From: a virus
DNA length: 23,646 nt
Strand: one strand, 5' to 3'
IMG/VR virus record: IMGVR_UViG_3300029892_000106
Span: 1-23,646 of that record
Position 1 is the stretch's first letter; each line of letters starts with the position of its first letter. The notes beneath the pieces are model-generated. The model searched no databases, was not told where the DNA came from, and saw only the letters and a list, made by a program, of their open reading frames with translations. The position numbers were made by a program, and so were the translations under genes. This document shows positions 5,527-23,646 of this stretch, piece by piece.

Positions 5527-5986
5527 GATCAAGTCCAGATTCTTGGTGTAAATTCTCCTGGTAGACGGAAAAGCGCAAGCTTGCGGACATTAGTCCTGAA
5601 CTGGTTCACCTCGCTTGAGATGCAGCGGTTTCCCCTGACCGGAAATCCGGGTTTGGGCCGCCCTGCGGTCGCTAGGCCCTGCCGCACTGCGTAAACATGT
5701 TGATTATCCCTGCTCGGGCGTTCAGCATGAGCCGCCCAGTGTCGCAAGGCCAGGCCCTCAAGAGGGGCGCCCTTTTTCATACCGGGAGCCCCTTGGGCCA
5801 GCATCCTGTCCACGGCAGTCCCGTGCACTGTGATATGGGGAGACTGCTTTCGAAAGCCGTGGCTATTGCTGAGAGTGGCTAATCCAGCGCACGAAGGGCA
5901 TTCCCAGCGCCCCTCGTTTAGGGCTTCTTGACACCTGGTGTCAAGTCTTCAAGTTTTGCCAAACCGGCGGGTCTGTTACTTTCCCG
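5527..5986 (-). other. Extra 3' segment of the IS element, no clear gene
   Basis: About 460 bp between the transposase stop and the left end, longer than usual for the family. It holds an open frame without a convincing start or ribosome site. From about 5934 down to 5529 it reads CQEALNEGRWECPSCAGL, then a low-information stretch ending LFRLPGEFTPRIWT. The CxxC pair hints at a zinc ribbon but matches nothing I recognise. A perfect palindrome GACACCTGGTGTC lies at 5930-5942. It could be a structured RNA or a passenger relic. Confidence 0.4.
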
Positions 5987-7204
5987 TCAGGCTGCCTGTG
6001 AGATACCTTGGTCGTGCCCGGCGACCACGCCTAGAGAGTTCTTCCACTCCAGGTAATCGCTCATGTCAAAGTACCGGTGGCCTGTAGACCAACTCTCATC
6101 GATCTCCATGAGTACGGCTCCAAGGAGTCTTAGAGCGGAGTCTTCGTTGGGGAATATGCGTATCACCCGTTCCCTCCGGCGAACCTCCTGGTTAAGCCGC
6201 TCGACGCCGTTCGTGGTCCTCAGGCGCTTGCGGTATCTCTCGGGAAGCGCCATGACCGCCATGGCATCTTCAAAGCCATCCTCAAGGCACTTGACGGCCT
6301 TGGGAGCCCGTTCGGAATATTCCTGGAGCACCTCCTCAAGGAGCCGGCGGGCCGTGACCATATCTGGTGCCTCGAAGATTAGCCGTAACCTCCCATGGAG
6401 CTCTCCCTGGAGCGCCCTGGGGCAGGCATCAAGGATGTTACGGGTAAAGTGTGTCTGGCAGCGCTGCCACGTAGCCCCCTGAAAACAGGTCTCAACGGCT
6501 TTTACCAACCCCCTGTGGTCGTCCGATACTACCAGGTCCACCCCCCGTAATCCCCGGGTCTTAAGGCTCTCAAAGAACTCAACCCAACTGGCCTCCGTCT
6601 CGCTGTCTCCCAGGGCTAGCCCCAATATCTCCCGGTAGCCCTCCCGGCTGATGCCGGTGGCTATGAGAACGCTCGATAGCCTCACACGGCCGTCCTTTCG
6701 CACCCGGATTACCATGGCATCCACCAACACAAACGGGTACTCACCAAGCTCCCGGTTCTTCCATTGCCCCACAACCTCGTCTAGCCCCTTGCATAACTCC
6801 GAGACGGTCGAATGGGAGAACTCCGTGCCACACAGTTCCTGCACCACTGCCCTTACCTTTCGCGTCGATACCCCGTTTACTACCATCTCTACCATGGCCA
6901 AAAGCAACGCCTGCTCGCTCCTTTGATACCTCCGGAACAGGTCCGTCGAAAAATGCCCGCTGCGAACCCGAGGCACCTCAAGGTTCAACTCTCCTACCCG
7001 CGTCTTTAGTTGCCTCTCCCGATACCCGTTCCGGTAACCCTCACGCTCTGGTGTCCTCTCGTAACGCCCCGCCTTTAGATGCTCAGCGGCCTGGGCATCC
7101 AAGACCTGATTTATCACCTGCTCCACCAAAACTGCCAACCCGTTATCACGGGTGAATAACTGCTGCACTACCGCCTCGTCTATGGTAATCTTGTACTGGG
7201 CCAT
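5987..7204 (-). CDS. IS256-family (mutator-type) transposase
   Basis: 405 residues, normal length. The DDE triad is visible: Asp in FVLVDAMVIRVR, Asp in VDLVVSDDHRGL, and Glu in RTTNGVERLNQEVRRRERVIRIFP, with the family signature CQTHFTRNIL between them. The N-terminus has ERTPEREGYRNGYRERQLKTRVG, the conserved DNA-binding region. The start is ATG 7204 behind AGGAGGGATAAGAGG; an upstream start at 7240 lacks a site. No frameshift or stop, so it should be active. Confidence 0.96.
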   Translation of the reverse strand: MAQYKITIDEAVVQQLFTRDNGLAVLVEQVINQVLDAQAAEHLKAGRYERTPEREGYRNGYRERQLKTRVGELNLEVPRVRSGHFSTDLFRRYQRSEQALLLAMVEMVVNGVSTRKVRAVVQELCGTEFSHSTVSELCKGLDEVVGQWKNRELGEYPFVLVDAMVIRVRKDGRVRLSSVLIATGISREGYREILGLALGDSETEASWVEFFESLKTRGLRGVDLVVSDDHRGLVKAVETCFQGATWQRCQTHFTRNILDACPRALQGELHGRLRLIFEAPDMVTARRLLEEVLQEYSERAPKAVKCLEDGFEDAMAVMALPERYRKRLRTTNGVERLNQEVRRRERVIRIFPNEDSALRLLGAVLMEIDESWSTGHRYFDMSDYLEWKNSLGVVAGHDQGISQAA

Positions 7205-7326
7205 CCTCTTATCCCTCCTGGTTGATATAGGTTTTGTCACCTTTCCATCTACCAGGGAGAGGGTGGCCTTTCCTCCTTCACCTCCCTCTCTAGGCCTTTA
7301 CCTCTGCCTACCCTTTTTACACCATT

Positions 7327-8016
7327 CTACCGGACACTACTGCCAGTGCCACACGCAACCTTAACGAATCTCATCAAAATACATGCAATCCTCGTCCTCA
7401 ACTTCAACAGCAATTTCTTTATTCGGTTCAAGGGTGTATTCGTTTTCGCCACAGCAGAATTCGATCGTGTGCGCTCTGCCTTCGCCGCCTCCACCACGGC
7501 CTGCTCTGCTTCCCAGCGTGCAATGTTGATCGTGGCCTCCCCACCGGAGAGGGCTTGCTGCACATCTGCCAGCGCGTCATTATACCCCTGCTCGTGTGCC
7601 GCGCACTTGTCATCGGGGATGTCCTCGTCAAGTTTGCCAGGATAGCCAAGCCAAGATATGCCCTCCCTTATCCTCCGCACCTGCTCCCTCAGCCTCCCAC
7701 ATTCCGGGCACCCTGGGACGGGAGTGGAGAGGGCTTCCTTTTCAGAGGCCTCCCCACCGGAGAGGGCCATGTTCCGCTGAGCTTGTCGGCAAAGGCTATC
7801 TATTCGTGCCTTCGCTTCCACGACCTCACGCGGATCTGCCTTGTCATCCAGAAGTAGTACGGTTTCTCGTACCAGGTCTATGACATCCCACAGCTCCCGC
7901 AAACGCTCGTTTTCCTTTAGAAGCTCTTCCACGCGCTCATTCACGGCGCGAATCTCCTGTTCGAGGAACTGTTTGTAGCTCGATGCGGGTTTCTCAACCA
8001 TCCGAACCGCCTCCAT
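7327..8016 (-). CDS. Coiled-coil phage protein with CPEC motif; C-terminus altered
   Basis: 229 residues as read. Residues ~15-45 form a coiled coil (EQEIRAVNERVEELLKENERL); PGCPECGRLREQVRRIREG lies in the middle. The segment ALSGGEA occurs twice, matching a 21-bp direct repeat at 7534-7554 and 7747-7767. The last ~40 residues are basic and atypical, and the final codons fall inside the IS end. One added base near 7480 would switch to an acidic tail, HTIEFCCGENEYTLEPNKE to CMYFDEIR, stopping at 7361, which looks more natural. ATG 8016 and ATG 8001 both have good ribosome sites. Function unknown. Confidence 0.55.
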   Translation of the reverse strand: MEAVRMVEKPASSYKQFLEQEIRAVNERVEELLKENERLRELWDVIDLVRETVLLLDDKADPREVVEAKARIDSLCRQAQRNMALSGGEASEKEALSTPVPGCPECGRLREQVRRIREGISWLGYPGKLDEDIPDDKCAAHEQGYNDALADVQQALSGGEATINIARWEAEQAVVEAAKAERTRSNSAVAKTNTPLNRIKKLLLKLRTRIACILMRFVKVACGTGSSVR

Positions 8017-14309: not shown

Positions 14310-14561
14310 TTATGATGGTTTCAAACCGATGAGAGTCCTTGGTGGGCTCCGCCTGATCCCCTGGAACGAAGCGTCGAACGGGTGCTCAGGAGGTCCCTCT
14401 CCTGCAATCCAAGCATCGAGGGCGGCGCGTGAAAATCGGTAGATCCGACCTACCTTCCGGTGGGGAATGCGGTTCACCTGGCATAGGCCCCGGATGGTCT
14501 TCACGTCGACCTGGAGGTACTTGGCCGCCTGTTCGGTTGTGAGGATGTCTGGGTATTGCAT
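14310..14561 (-). CDS. Excisionase-like helix-turn-helix (HTH_17) protein
   Basis: 83 residues starting MQYPDILTTEQAAKYLQVDV at ATG 14561, behind GGAGG. The MerR-like winged helix of excisionases is plain: LTTEQAAKYLQV, then IPHRKVGRIYRFSRAALDAW. The C-terminal 30 residues are a basic, proline-rich tail. By position and fold it could be the recombination directionality factor for the integrase, though HTH_17 proteins also act as plain regulators. Longer in-frame readings upstream lack a ribosome site. Confidence 0.7.
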   Translation of the reverse strand: MQYPDILTTEQAAKYLQVDVKTIRGLCQVNRIPHRKVGRIYRFSRAALDAWIAGEGPPEHPFDASFQGIRRSPPRTLIGLKPS

Positions 14562-14685
14562 GGGACGAGCCTCCGTTCTAATTTCGTCGCTAAGGCCCCC
14601 AGAATGCCCTAGGAGCCGTTTTCCGGGGCGGGTGAATACTTTATATAACCCTTGACCCGGGGCAAACTTAGCCTCAGGGAGAACA

Positions 14686-16495: not shown

Positions 16496-17629
16496 ATGCG
16501 CGGCCACATCCGAAAACGCGGGAAGAATTCCTGGTCTTTGGTCGTGGAGCTAGGCCGCGATCCGCTGACGGGCACGCGCCGCCAGAAGTGGATTACCGTG
16601 CGCGGCACTCGGAAGCAGGCCGAGGCCCGGCTCTCTGAGGTCATATCGTCCTTGGAGAGGGGCGCGTACGTAGAACCCACGAGGGACACCATAGCCGAGT
16701 ACCTGGCAAAATGGCTTGAGGTCTATGCCGTCCCCAACGTTTCCGAGAACACCCTTAATGGCTATACTATCAATGTCCGGAAGCATATCATTCCGTACAT
16801 CGGGCGCATCCCTCTGAAGGATCTTCGCCCGGCCCACGTCCAGGAGCTCTACTCGGGGCTCCTTGCATCGGGCCTTTCCCCGAAATCGGTCCGGTACGTT
16901 CACACCACCCTCCACGAAGCACTGAAGCACGCCGTCCGCTGGGAGCTCATCCCCCGTAACGTGACGGAGGCTGTGACGCCGCCAAGGGTGCCGAGGCACG
17001 AGATCACGGTACTCGAACCCCGGCAGGTGACGGCGATCCTGAAAGCGCTCCAGGATACCCGGCTCTACATGCCGGTGCTCCTGGCCGTTTCCACCGGCAT
17101 GAGGCGCGGGGAGATATTCGGCCTGCGCTGGCCTGACGTAAATTTCGAGCGAGGGCTTATACATATTGCCCGTTCCATGTTGCGGGTAGAAAACGGTGCG
17201 CCGGTGTGGGGCACTACCAAGACTGAGGGCAGCCGGCGCAGCATCAGCCTCCCGGCCATGACAATCCGAGCCTTGCGCGAGCACGAGAGGGCCCAGGACG
17301 TGTTCAAGCGTGTTCACGGGTCCGCTTACCGTAACCATGGCTTGGTCGTGTGCCTCGAGGATGGCCGTGCCTGGGATCTTTCTAACTTCGCGTCCGCCTT
17401 CCGCCGGGCCATGGATGGCCTGGGCTTCAAAGGCATCCGCTTCCATGACCTCCGGCACACTCACGCCACGATGCTTCTTAAGGAGGGCGTCCACCCGAAA
17501 ATCGTTTCTGAGCGTCTAGGACATGCCACGGTCCAGATGACCCTCAATACCTACTCCCACGTGCTCCCAGAGATGCAGAAGGAGGCCGCCTCTAGAATAG
17601 ACGACCTCCTAAATCCGAAGGATGGTTAG
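16496..17629 (+). CDS. int: Tyrosine-type phage integrase
   Basis: 377 residues. Arm-binding N-terminal domain (MRGHIRKRGKNSWSLVVELG), SAM-like core-binding domain from about residue 60 (DTIAEYLAKWLEVYAV), then the catalytic domain with Arg in AVSTGMRRGEIFGLRW, HDLRHTHATMLL, LGHATVQMTLNTYSH giving the R-K-H-R-H-Y set. All key residues are present. AGGAGGGGACCA precedes ATG. The stop lies inside the first arm-type repeat of the attachment site, the usual int-attP arrangement. Confidence 0.97.
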   Translation: MRGHIRKRGKNSWSLVVELGRDPLTGTRRQKWITVRGTRKQAEARLSEVISSLERGAYVEPTRDTIAEYLAKWLEVYAVPNVSENTLNGYTINVRKHIIPYIGRIPLKDLRPAHVQELYSGLLASGLSPKSVRYVHTTLHEALKHAVRWELIPRNVTEAVTPPRVPRHEITVLEPRQVTAILKALQDTRLYMPVLLAVSTGMRRGEIFGLRWPDVNFERGLIHIARSMLRVENGAPVWGTTKTEGSRRSISLPAMTIRALREHERAQDVFKRVHGSAYRNHGLVVCLEDGRAWDLSNFASAFRRAMDGLGFKGIRFHDLRHTHATMLLKEGVHPKIVSERLGHATVQMTLNTYSHVLPEMQKEAASRIDDLLNPKDG

Positions 17630-17850
17630 CAATCCGTTAGCAATTCCCGCTTTCCAGCCGTTCCCCGCTTGCTAACCCCCTGATAAACTGGCTCCTCGTG
17701 TAGGACTCGAACCTACAACCCCTCGGTTAACAGCCGGTGTAGGGAGGCTGATGGGAAATATGTATTTTACCGATAGAGTGCTAGATGATACATTGAGATG
17801 ACTCTCGCACCGTTTGAGACCATGTAGGGCGTTAGCAATTTGGTTAGCAA
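17625..17850. other. attP attachment region with five GTTAGCAA arm repeats
   Basis: GTTAGCAA at 17625-17632, 17636-17643, 17831-17838 and 17843-17850, and inverted at 17669-17676. They flank the tRNA-Asn-like core at 17689-17737. Pairs are spaced 11 and 12 bp. Size (226 bp) and layout resemble lambda attP, with arm sites on both sides. Besides these elements I see no gene in 17630-17974. Confidence 0.75.
17689..17737 (-). other. Core site: 3' half of tRNA-Asn(GTT)
   Basis: Read on the minus strand it runs CCGGCTGTTAACCG (anticodon GTT), variable loop, T-arm GTAGGTTCGAGTCCTAC, and 3' acceptor strand CGAGGAG with CCA. The 5' half, including the D-arm, is absent, so it is not a functional tRNA gene. 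It is the crossover segment that would rebuild the host tRNA-Asn gene on integration. Confidence 0.85.
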
Positions 17851-17974: not shown

Positions 17975-18577
17975 CTACTCCCATGCCTCGCTGAATTCCC
18001 TGTCTGCAAACAGCTCCGCCAAGCCAGTGATCTGCTTCAATCTCAGAACCTCATCAGGCTCCATACCGAGCTCCTTCGCAATTTTCTTGTCACTCCAGTT
18101 CCGCCGCGAGAGTTCCAGCACGATATTGGACATGCCCATAACAACGTGCTTCCCACGCGCCCTGTTGTGCCGGATGGTGGCCGCTATCCTATCGGCCCGC
18201 TCCCTATCCAGAAGGGTAATGGGCAGATAGCCTTTCACTCGCTCCCGTATCTCGCGGCACTCTTTCCCCACGCGGTTACGGTGGAACCCATCCACCACCT
18301 CAATCCATTCACCCTCATCGTAACCCACGATAGGCTGGGTGTACCCGTCCTGTCTGATGGAGTGCTCCAGTAACCGCATTTCAGGTGGAGCCACGACATT
18401 GGGGTTATAATCGTTCGCCTCCACCCTATCGGCTGGTACCCATAGCACGCAGTCCACGGGCTCGTCCTTGAAGGGGCTAACCTCATGAAGCCGCCGTCGT
18501 ATCGCATTCAGGGCGGCCACCCCCTGGCCCATGGGCATCCGCTTGATCTCCTTGACAATGGCCTCAACAAAGTCCAT
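17975..18577 (-). CDS. ibrB: IbrB-like ParB-domain protein
   Basis: 200 residues. After a helical start, a ParB/Srx-type nuclease fold: WVPADRVEANDYNPNVVAPP, then LLEHSIRQDGYTQPIVGYDE, VVDGFHRNRVGKE and the RHNRARGKH motif; a helix-turn-helix follows (RRNWSDKKIAKELGMEPDE). No ParA partner exists here. It is coupled (TAATG) to the PAPS-reductase/DUF3440 gene, the arrangement of E. coli ibrAB. The start at 18577 has a GGGGA site; ATG 18589 also possible. ParB-fold proteins bind or hydrolyse CTP or act as nucleases; which applies here is unknown. Confidence 0.8.
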   Translation of the reverse strand: MDFVEAIVKEIKRMPMGQGVAALNAIRRRLHEVSPFKDEPVDCVLWVPADRVEANDYNPNVVAPPEMRLLEHSIRQDGYTQPIVGYDEGEWIEVVDGFHRNRVGKECREIRERVKGYLPITLLDRERADRIAATIRHNRARGKHVVMGMSNIVLELSRRNWSDKKIAKELGMEPDEVLRLKQITGLAELFADREFSEAWE

Positions 18578-19773
18578 TATATTCCCCATCGCGCCCGGCG
18601 CTTCTTCATCATTTTCAGGTACTTCTCGTAGGCCTCGCTTTTCGTCTGGCTGAAAGAGAGTCCCTTGCACCAATAATCGTTTCTGAGCAGTGCCTTGCAG
18701 ATCCTTCGCCACGACGGCACCTCCTTAGCCGCTTCCTTCTGTATGTCGTCACAATCTGGGATACCGTTTGGGTATCCTCTGTCCATCCACCACTTCACGA
18801 ATACCGCAATCTTGTTCTCAAAGTGCTCTCGCGTCCTGGCTGGCATGCTCTCTAGGAGCAGTCGGGCAAAGGACTCCCACGTGTGCCCGTCTGGTTTAGT
18901 GATCTTGAGGCGTCCCAGGATGTTGCCAGATTCCAGGGCATATAGCGCGCCTTGGTTTGCCCCGTTGACACGGGCAACAATCCTTCCCCAAGTCTCGGGT
19001 TCTATGACATGAAACAGCCATAGTCCCTTCCGCTGATCATCGCCATACGGCTGGCAGATCCTCATCTGGTGGATAGTTAGCCCCGCCTGGTGCATACGGT
19101 CATAGAGGACATTGTAGGGCTTGCCGAACCTGGCATTGTAGACCCATATATCTTCGGTCTTCCAATCATAAATAGGATAAACATTGTAACAGCCCTCACC
19201 AGTCCAAGTAGTGAAAACCTTATCATCAAACCGCGCCTTGTTCCCCACAATTGTACGATACCTGTTAAGAGACTCATCAGTGCGGATGCCAACAAGGGAG
19301 GCACTTAGCTGGCCTTGCCCGTACCACTTGTTGAAGGCAGGAACAAACTCCTCAAACTCCATCGCGTAGCGATAAAACGGGAAATAGGTCTGATCAGTAA
19401 TCGCAATCTTCGGTGGCTGCCTCACCCACTCCATGCCAGGCTCCCAGCAGATCCACCTAGGCTGATACTGGGAGACGGCGTTGCGGAGGATGATGGGCAG
19501 GCAGACCCAGAAAGGCTCTATGTGCTCAGCATAAAGGTTATACATCTCCTGGATATGGTCAATGGTGAGTTTATACTGCCCTTCAAGATCCACAAAGAGG
19601 ACTGCCACCCTCCGGCCCCGCTTAATTGCTTCATCCATAACCAGGTGGAGCATAACAGTGGAATCTTTACCCCCGCTGAAACTCACGCAGATGCGAGAGA
19701 ATGTGTCAAATGTCCAGGCTATGCGCTCCCTGGTCGCATCGTAGACGCTGATTCCGAGAAGCCTCTTGCCCAT
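18577..19773 (-). CDS. ibrA: IbrA-like PAPS-reductase-family protein with DUF3440
   Basis: 398 residues. The PP-loop SFSGGKDSTVMLHLV (residues 31-45) binds ATP/PAPS-type substrates; LFVDLEGQYKLTIDHIQEMY and GIRTDESLNRY complete the family pattern. The C-terminal half, with RICQPYGDDQRKGLWLFH and RVNGANQGALYA, fits DUF3440. Some PP-loop members activate uracil/sulphur chemistry on RNA or DNA; the substrate of IbrA is not known, but E. coli IbrAB acts as a regulator of prophage genes. Start has GGAGG. Overlaps the gene upstream by 55 bases and ibrB by stop-start. Confidence 0.85.
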   Translation of the reverse strand: MGKRLLGISVYDATRERIAWTFDTFSRICVSFSGGKDSTVMLHLVMDEAIKRGRRVAVLFVDLEGQYKLTIDHIQEMYNLYAEHIEPFWVCLPIILRNAVSQYQPRWICWEPGMEWVRQPPKIAITDQTYFPFYRYAMEFEEFVPAFNKWYGQGQLSASLVGIRTDESLNRYRTIVGNKARFDDKVFTTWTGEGCYNVYPIYDWKTEDIWVYNARFGKPYNVLYDRMHQAGLTIHQMRICQPYGDDQRKGLWLFHVIEPETWGRIVARVNGANQGALYALESGNILGRLKITKPDGHTWESFARLLLESMPARTREHFENKIAVFVKWWMDRGYPNGIPDCDDIQKEAAKEVPSWRRICKALLRNDYWCKGLSFSQTKSEAYEKYLKMMKKRRARWGI

Positions 19774-21026: not shown

Positions 21027-21272
21027 TTATTCTGCTGCGTTTTTTGCTGTGGAATAAAGCCCGGCTGCACTCAAGCCTACGGCTAAGCCTATTATGGCGG
21101 CTGTAAACCACTGAGTTTCTGCATAAAACGTGTAACCAAAGCTGATGGCAAGGCCAAATGCTACTGCCAGAAGTCCGCCGAACTTGGACGGGAAACCTAT
21201 TGCTTTTGCTAGGCTCACAAGTCCTATAATGACTCCAACGGCAGCCACTCCTCCGACAAGCTCCAGATCCAT
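21027..21272 (-). CDS. Holin-like membrane protein
   Basis: 81 residues with three hydrophobic segments, about residues 5-24, 33-50 and 57-77, separated by short loops (KAIGFPSKFG; YAETQ). The C-terminus is small and polar. AAGGAGGTAGAGTT lies upstream of ATG. Next to an endolysin gene, a small three-pass protein is best read as the holin that opens the membrane at lysis; the exact family is uncertain. Confidence 0.7.
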   Translation of the reverse strand: MDLELVGGVAAVGVIIGLVSLAKAIGFPSKFGGLLAVAFGLAISFGYTFYAETQWFTAAIIGLAVGLSAAGLYSTAKNAAE

Positions 21273-21278
21273 AGAACT

Positions 21279-21821
21279 CTACCTCCTTGTTTGATTTGGG
21301 AAATCCCTGATTGCGTAGGCGATGCCCAGTGCCGCCTTTTCCCGGTACCAGTCCGCTTTCAGCAGTATTTCTTCATCTGGGTTACTGATGAATGCCAGTT
21401 CTACCAGGACAGCCGGGGGCACCGCCTCTTTGAGTACCGTTAGATCCGGCCTGAGTTTGATACCCCGATTCTGTCTGGCCGTTGTAACACCGAGATGGTA
21501 TAAGAGTATATGGGCTAACGCTCCAGAGTCGTACTTCTCGGTGTAGATAAGGGCCTCCATACCCCGTACTTTGGGGTCGTTAAATGAATTTGCATGAATG
21601 GAAACAAGTACATCAGCGTAGTCCGCCATCCGCGCCCGTTGAATCTGTGTAGGCCGGTCATTCTGTGACCGGGTGAGTACCACGTCATATCCCAGCCGCT
21701 CTAAGTATTGCTTCACGCGGGTTGATACTGCCCAGTTAACCTCGGCCTCGTGGAGACCCGTTGGACCAATGGCCCCAGGGTCTTCCCCACCGTGCCCAGG
21801 GTCAAGACAGACTAGGGGCAT
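21279..21821 (-). CDS. N-acetylmuramoyl-L-alanine amidase (Amidase_3 endolysin)
   Basis: 180 residues: LVCLDPGHGGEDPGAIGP (zinc His at 10), GLHEAEVNW (zinc Glu), VSIHANSFND (zinc His) and PAVLVELAFISNPDEE with the catalytic Glu. All Amidase_3 metal and catalytic residues are present. It cuts the bond between muramic acid and the stem peptide. There is no wall-binding domain. Start at 21821 has GGAGG; the longer reading is the shadow of the protease end. Overlaps the protease gene by 10 bases. Confidence 0.93.
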   Translation of the reverse strand: MPLVCLDPGHGGEDPGAIGPTGLHEAEVNWAVSTRVKQYLERLGYDVVLTRSQNDRPTQIQRARMADYADVLVSIHANSFNDPKVRGMEALIYTEKYDSGALAHILLYHLGVTTARQNRGIKLRPDLTVLKEAVPPAVLVELAFISNPDEEILLKADWYREKAALGIAYAIRDFPNQTRR

Positions 21822-22633
21822 CGGCTGAATACCTCCAGCACGCGGGAGAGCGGTATGGCGAAGTTGAAACTGTCTGCGCCCGTGACACCCGCGCATGGTA
21901 CTCCCACAACGTTGCCCAGATAGTCTACCAACATTCCGCCAGAATTGCCTGGGTTAATTGGGGCATCTATTCCAAGCACATGCTGGCCACGCTTCCAATA
22001 GTTGATATATCGCTGGGGATTACGCACCACGCCACGGCACAAGTCCCATGGAAACCCAAACGGATTCCCAAGCGCCCACACCGTTTGCCCCTGCTCAGGA
22101 TCTACGGTGCCCAACGCGGCCTGTGGGCAAGGAAGGCCCGCCCCTGCGTCCGCGTAGAAAGGCTTTTCTACATCCAGCACCGCAAGGTCATACTCGTGGG
22201 CCATGACTAGCACAGTTGCCTTCATTCCGTCAATGGGACTGAACCCCGCTGCCGGGTTGCCCCACACGGAGATGCCCACTGTCTTTACATCGTCCTCCAA
22301 ACTCTCAACGACGTGGGCATTAGTCATCACGCGCCAGGGCTTGCCCGGTAGCCAAAAGCCGCTCCCGCGCTGCCCCAATAACTGACCTCTCCGCTCCAAC
22401 GTTGTACGAACAAAGACCAAACTCAACATCCGTTTTTGCACCGGCTCCCGGCCTTCGGTCTCGTACTGTCGCCTCAGAACTGCTGCAAGCTGCGCCCGCG
22501 TAACCGGCGCATCTGGGACAAACATGCCGTCATCGTGACCTGTGAGAAGACCAAGTTTGACTGCAATCTCCACATCATGCTCAAACCAGCGGCCCTTGAT
22601 AGCGCTTTCCCAGTCCTTGAATCTCAATGGCAT
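21812..22633 (-). CDS. SLH-domain trypsin-like serine protease
   Basis: 273 residues. Residues ~5-55 are one S-layer homology repeat (WESAIKGRWFEHDVEIAVKL, then GLLTGHDDGMFVPDAPVTRA). After a linker comes a chymotrypsin-fold protease like HtrA: MTNAHVV (His), EYDLAVLDVEKPF (Asp), and INPGNSGGMLVDYLGNVVG (Ser), closed by FAIPLSRVLEV. No PDZ domain and no signal peptide. The domain pair is well known in Firmicute wall proteases but odd between an endolysin and a holin-like gene. It may loosen an S-layer at lysis or process phage tail proteins. Confidence 0.9.
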   Translation of the reverse strand: MPLRFKDWESAIKGRWFEHDVEIAVKLGLLTGHDDGMFVPDAPVTRAQLAAVLRRQYETEGREPVQKRMLSLVFVRTTLERRGQLLGQRGSGFWLPGKPWRVMTNAHVVESLEDDVKTVGISVWGNPAAGFSPIDGMKATVLVMAHEYDLAVLDVEKPFYADAGAGLPCPQAALGTVDPEQGQTVWALGNPFGFPWDLCRGVVRNPQRYINYWKRGQHVLGIDAPINPGNSGGMLVDYLGNVVGVPCAGVTGADSFNFAIPLSRVLEVFSRCP

Positions 22634-23343: not shown

Positions 23344-23646
23344 CTACTTGCCTACGAAAATTGCCTCCCCCGATGCAGGTGGTCCGTACCAATCACCAGA
23401 TTGTACTCCTTGCAGCGAGAGATCAGGCCACCGCACAAGCCCTGATACCGGGGCCTGTACAGAAGCCGGATCGTACTCCTCGTTGGCGGCGAGGTAGGCG
23501 CCATTATATCCTCCCACCGCGTACATCATTCCGTTTCCAGGAGCTGCGGTGGCCAAGCCGTTCCGAGCGGTGGGCATGGCAGCTTTGGCGGTCCAAGTAT
23601 TGGTCGCCGGGTCGTATTCCTCGTTGGCGGCGAGGTAGTTGGCGCC
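23344..23646 (-). CDS. Kelch-repeat tail protein, C-terminal part
   Basis: The frame is open to the right edge, so the gene starts outside the window. At least one full kelch repeat is seen: AANEEYDPATNTWTAKAAMP, then TARNGLATAAPGNGMMYAVG and GYNGAYLAANEEYDPASVQ, a 47-residue period (about 141 bp in DNA, seen again as similar DNA near 23472 and 23612). It ends in a non-kelch tail of about 40 residues. Kelch propellers in phage tail fibres or tips bind surface sugars; receptor binding is inferred. Confidence 0.8.
   Translation of the reverse strand, partial: GANYLAANEEYDPATNTWTAKAAMPTARNGLATAAPGNGMMYAVGGYNGAYLAANEEYDPASVQAPVSGLVRWPDLSLQGVQSGDWYGPPASGEAIFVGK

Follow-up and report, generated by a model that had tools for sequence, protein, structure and literature searches.

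The window analyzed here is the whole 23,646-nucleotide stretch of the virus record IMGVR_UViG_3300029892_000106. A tyrosine integrase of 377 aa is encoded on its plus strand (positions 16496–17629) and was recognized by matches to PF00589 (3e-26), to the SAM-like domain PF14659 (3e-16) and to the integrase family phrog_1 (5e-88). Its catalytic residues R203, H317, R320, H343 and Y353 are invariant among 7 relatives; a neighboring tyrosine integrase whose catalytic residues are conserved is one of the features expected of a phage attachment site (attP). The N-terminus matches PF14657 (Arm-DNA-bind_4) at 2.5e-4, just under the Pfam cut-off, which counts to that extent against the interpretation developed below. 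The TAG stop codon of the integrase (17627–17629) falls inside the first of a series of short repeats. On the minus strand, 14310–14567 encodes an excisionase-family HTH protein (TIGR01764, 1.7e-13; HTH_17), a candidate directionality factor.

An exact search of the whole record found five copies of the 8-mer GTTAGCAA, all inside 17625–17850, of which four are direct and one is inverted. Two direct copies, the putative arm sites P1 (17625–17632, plus strand) and P2 (17636–17643, plus), are followed by the inverted copy P3 (17669–17676, minus), then by the core described below, and then by two more direct copies, P'1 (17831–17838, plus) and P'2 (17843–17850, plus). The direct pairs are spaced by 11 bp on the integrase side and by 12 bp on the far side, about one helical turn, and the position of P1 is conserved in relatives. 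Such repeated arm-type sites on both flanks of a core are expected of a tyrosine-integrase attP. The first-pass annotation had counted three copies on the integrase side and two beyond; these counts agree with the search, with the correction that the third copy lies on the opposite strand, which had gone unmentioned. An equal frequency of the 8-mer elsewhere in the genome would have spoken against that annotation, and this is not the case within the record. Under dinucleotide shuffles the count of GTTAGCAA averaged 0.35, reached at most 2 and was never 5. No 226-bp stretch of the window other than 17625–17850 contains any 8-mer four or more times, and when the region was shuffled 2000 times its top 8-mer count never exceeded 3. 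A literature search for GTTAGCAA gave only unrelated papers among the matches listed.

P1 and P3 match each other as a perfect 9-bp inverted repeat, as might be found if the repeats were a transcription terminator or some other non-recombination feature of the integrase gene's 3' end. However, the region folds no better than its shuffles (z −0.65), the far pair is 200 bp beyond the integrase gene, and the direct repeats of relatives come without an inverted copy. A structured RNA or terminator, having no Rfam match and an unremarkable fold, was rejected, and the probability of a role outside recombination is judged to be next to negligible.

Between the two repeat groups lies a 48-bp core, the 3' half of a tRNA-Asn from anticodon stem to CCA, which reads CGGCTGTTAACCGAGGGGTTGTAGGTTCGAGTCCTACACGAGGAGCCA on the minus strand from 17736 down to 17689. 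Its last 45 nt, from anticodon loop to CCA, match chromosomal tRNA-Asn genes of Bacillota-group genomes at 42–43 of 45 bases; these matches occurred in 12 of the 398 genomes of the sampled phylum (2–3 mismatches), and a class-level genome search added one more, with 2 mismatches. The core thus shows, at 42–43 of 45 bases and with genomes other than the exact host, the identity with a host attB (here a tRNA 3' half) that is expected of an attP. This bears out the earlier description of a tRNA-Asn 3' half flanked by repeats within a 226-bp region. ARAGORN found no whole tRNA in the window, which makes this a half site, as an attP should have. In the alignment, identity with the chromosomal tRNA-Asn genes ends just 5' of the anticodon loop, suggesting that strands are exchanged within the loop. 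The anticodon loop is the usual place of crossover for anticodon-type tRNA-targeting integrases. The likely 7-bp overlap, placed from this identity boundary, is the loop sequence TTAACAG (17727–17733), which holds most of the palindrome GTTAAC (17726–17731).

Hosts were sought in 398 genomes drawn from one phylum and in 113 and 154 genomes of two classes. The first-pass annotation had pointed to tRNA-Asn genes followed by this integrase in host genomes; neither the exact half nor a close integrase was recovered from the three sets. In these 398, 113 and 154 genomes no integrase of more than 49% identity was present among the matches listed, and no tRNA-Asn half came closer than 2 mismatches. 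Viral contigs likewise gave no exact match to a 32-nt part of the tRNA half. Since none of these genomes carried the tRNA-Asn half without mismatch or an integrase closely similar to this one, the attB is a prediction only.

The genes around the site were compared with phage and protein families. To its left lie repressor-like, recombination and replication genes. To its right, all on the minus strand, are a ParB-like phage protein (17975–18712; phrog_2159, 5e-71) rather than a host gene, a phage PAPS-reductase-like protein (18577–19773; phrog_2302, 2e-88; PF01507 and PF11922), and the lysis genes, a holin and an amidase endolysin (21027–21821; phrog_1299, 1.4e-15, and phrog_435, 1.5e-39). All of these belong to phage families, confirming by phrog and Pfam matches the earlier claim that phage genes flank the region on both sides; host genes on one side, which would have spoken against that annotation, occur on neither side within the record. 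The order fits a single phage map (lysis, attP, integrase, repressor, replication). The record begins at its left end with an HNH endonuclease followed by a terminase and closes at its right end with a kelch protein. It is classed as linear, and no end repeats or overlapping ends were found in it. Near-identical kelch-motif repeats lie at the right end (23465–23638) and are the likely reason that the assembly stops there.

The absence of a whole tRNA from the window, together with phage genes on both sides, identifies the site as an attP and not an attL or attR; these, with no whole tRNA and no host genes present, were rejected. Because the order around the site is the usual one of temperate phages (lysis, attP, integrase, lysogeny), a single integrated prophage with host flanks does not describe this DNA, and the unintegrated form follows from a half tRNA that has arms to its left and right. 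The first-pass annotation had called the genome circular or virion in form, or closed during assembly. The unintegrated (or tandem) part of that claim holds, given the half tRNA with its two arms; a closed circle is unsupported by a linear record without end repeats. The same local sequence would be expected of a circular replication form, of packaged or concatemeric DNA and of a junction between tandem prophages. In the last case, two prophages at one tRNA gene would restore a whole attP, bordered by phage genes, with no need for a free circle, and a linear record lacking end repeats would agree with this. However, the host would have to be a double lysogen, the 23.6 kb contain neither host DNA nor a second integrase, and the gene order suits one phage map. 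A tandem junction is therefore considered very improbable.

Loci of related integrases were examined for comparable repeats. Four of these, L004–L007, were retrieved by protein search and independently of the motif. In L004, a Deltaproteobacteria MAG with an integrase 42% identical and located beside tRNA-Sec, GGTTAGCAAATGGTTAGCAAA lies just past the integrase stop codon, and in L007, a Desulfovirgula MAG (38% identical), GTTAGCAAGCGTTAGCAA occupies this place; both thus carry tandem GTTAGCAA 10–11 bp apart at the stop. L005 and L006 have GATTAGCAA twice in this position, adjoining tRNA-Leu. In the reverse direction, viral contigs were scanned by DNA only for tandem GTTAGCAA, and in 12 of 16 fetched loci carrying a tyrosine integrase the repeat was no more than 170 bp from the integrase 3' end. 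Two of them, L015 and L074, have 3+2 sites around another tRNA half, the layout of the window; being near-identical in layout, they are probably one phage. Tandem repeats (score 8 or more) were present in 43 of 61 non-redundant relatives, at least 4 of which had been fetched by the motif itself, as compared to 3 of 305 shuffles (about 1%). In most cases their period is 11 bp, and most lie directly past the integrase stop codon, which shows that in this integrase family arm sites can usually be read off at that place. The repeat itself varies with the integrase (for example GTTAGCAA, GTTTGCAAA, TGTCACCAA or GGCGACAA), as it would if it moved together with the arm-binding domain. In L141, downstream of the integrase, the integrase-side repeats are GTTGCCCAA as compared to TTTGACAGCAA twice beyond the tRNA half, a mismatch that possibly marks the edge of a second element.

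These comparisons bear on which protein would bind the repeats. Another phage protein, a repressor or an excisionase, might be the binder: the excisionase-like HTH protein at 14310–14567 is a candidate, and the link between integrase and GTTAGCAA rests on comparison. However, GTTAGCAA recurs at the integrase stop in unrelated loci beside different tRNAs, and in other relatives different motifs occupy this place with the same period; both fit a site that travels with the integrase. A different binder is thus very improbable. The proposal that the 8-mer is the integrase's arm-binding site is supported by this recurrence, and GTTAGCAA probably represents the arm sites gripped by the integrase N-terminal domain.

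The closest relative, L010 (IMGVR_UViG_3300001446_000006), has an integrase 59% identical to that of the window. As in the window, its core is a tRNA-Asn 3' half flanked on either side by arm repeats, and phage-like genes lie on the far side. However, its arm motif is GTTCCAAAC, arranged 3+1, and its tRNA half is reversed relative to the integrase; that the closest integrase has another arm repeat counts against the interpretation favored here. Three TTCCAAAC arm repeats (L010 5822–5853) lie inside the integrase reading frame, in a C-terminal extension, so that this arm DNA is protein-coding as well. By an approximate regex test for the tRNA T-loop, the tRNA 3' end faces the integrase, as in the window, in 36 of the 44 relatives with a T-loop motif near the integrase gene and is reversed in 8. 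A near-palindromic overlap may, speculatively, ease such flips of the tRNA half.

GCAA-type arms accompany 17 of 20 integrases with Trp32 as compared to 4 of 23 others (Fisher p 1e-5). On the tree, only 3 well-supported independent pairs are present, about 2 of them concordant, which is not significant; L010 contradicts the relationship, as it combines Trp32 with GTTCCAAAC arms. With so few independent changes and this counterexample, a residue code is a lead only, and a weak one: Trp in the arm-binding domain may go with GCAA-type arm sites. A wider proposal, in which the arm site just past the integrase stop follows a Trp32–GCAA code and the near-palindromic GTTAAC overlap allows one tRNA to be used in either orientation, is regarded as doubtful. 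For cluster K mycobacteriophages (PMC3203893), as for Oenococcus phages (PMC8074189), similar links between residues and arm sites have been suggested.

Very likely, the phage is temperate, its host belongs to Bacillota or a similar group, and the window contains its attP in intact form, with a tyrosine integrase, five putative arm sites and tRNA-Asn as target. For integration itself, we infer the following course. The N-terminal domain of the integrase would bind the five GTTAGCAA sites on both arms, bending attP, and the bent complex would pair with the host tRNA-Asn gene. The core would be the substrate of the catalytic and SAM-like domains, with strand exchange in the anticodon loop. After integration, the phage-borne 3' half would restore the interrupted gene, leaving the integrase gene just downstream and convergent to it.

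Several characterized sites resemble this arrangement. The attP of mycobacteriophage Pixie (cluster K3; PMC3203893) likewise has a tyrosine integrase, a core shared with a tRNA gene (tRNA-Lys in Pixie), a direct pair of arm sites on one side with more on the other, and one site opposite in orientation; it differs in having three far-side sites where the window has two, and in arm sequence, tRNA and host. The Oenococcus oeni IntF/IntB prophage attP (PMC8074189) also has direct repeats on both arms, there 10-bp copies of ATTTGCACAA, for which the proposed binder is an N-terminal domain, variable from one integrase to another. Its repeats are arranged 2+4 with another consensus, although a TTNGCA-like core is common to both. 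Lambda attP shares the core with arm sites on both arms, and lambda Int the N-terminal arm-binding and catalytic domains; the structure 1z1g (lambda Int) matches the window integrase by sequence outside the N-terminal domain. In the window, unlike lambda, the target is a tRNA and the arm-binding domain weakly matches PF14657; the likeness is one of architecture only. Of the accessory elements of lambda-like sites, which include IHF and Xis binding sites, the window showed an excisionase-like gene. The site is a textbook tyrosine-integrase attP, well-formed but ordinary, and the phage genome around it is unintegrated (or tandem). That arm sites pair with N-terminal domain variation is not a new principle, having been put forward before for mycobacteriophages and for Oenococcus phages. 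The attP and integrase are fully delimited in a record from an uncultured virus and could be used as a predicted tRNA-Asn integration system.

Other genes of the record were also observed. An intact IS256-type (Mutator family) transposase (5987–7240; PF00872, 6.6e-129) lies in the phage replication region; a search of 5800–7450 around it found no terminal inverted repeats at least 14 nt long. The ParB-like and DUF3440/PAPS-reductase-like proteins (17975–19773), between attP and the lysis genes, are a possible moron pair. Next to the endolysin, 21812–22633 encodes an HtrA-like serine protease with an apparent N-terminal SLH-like stretch, recognized by eye; an SLH-like tail was likewise seen by eye on an amidase-like protein of L010 (7682–8338).
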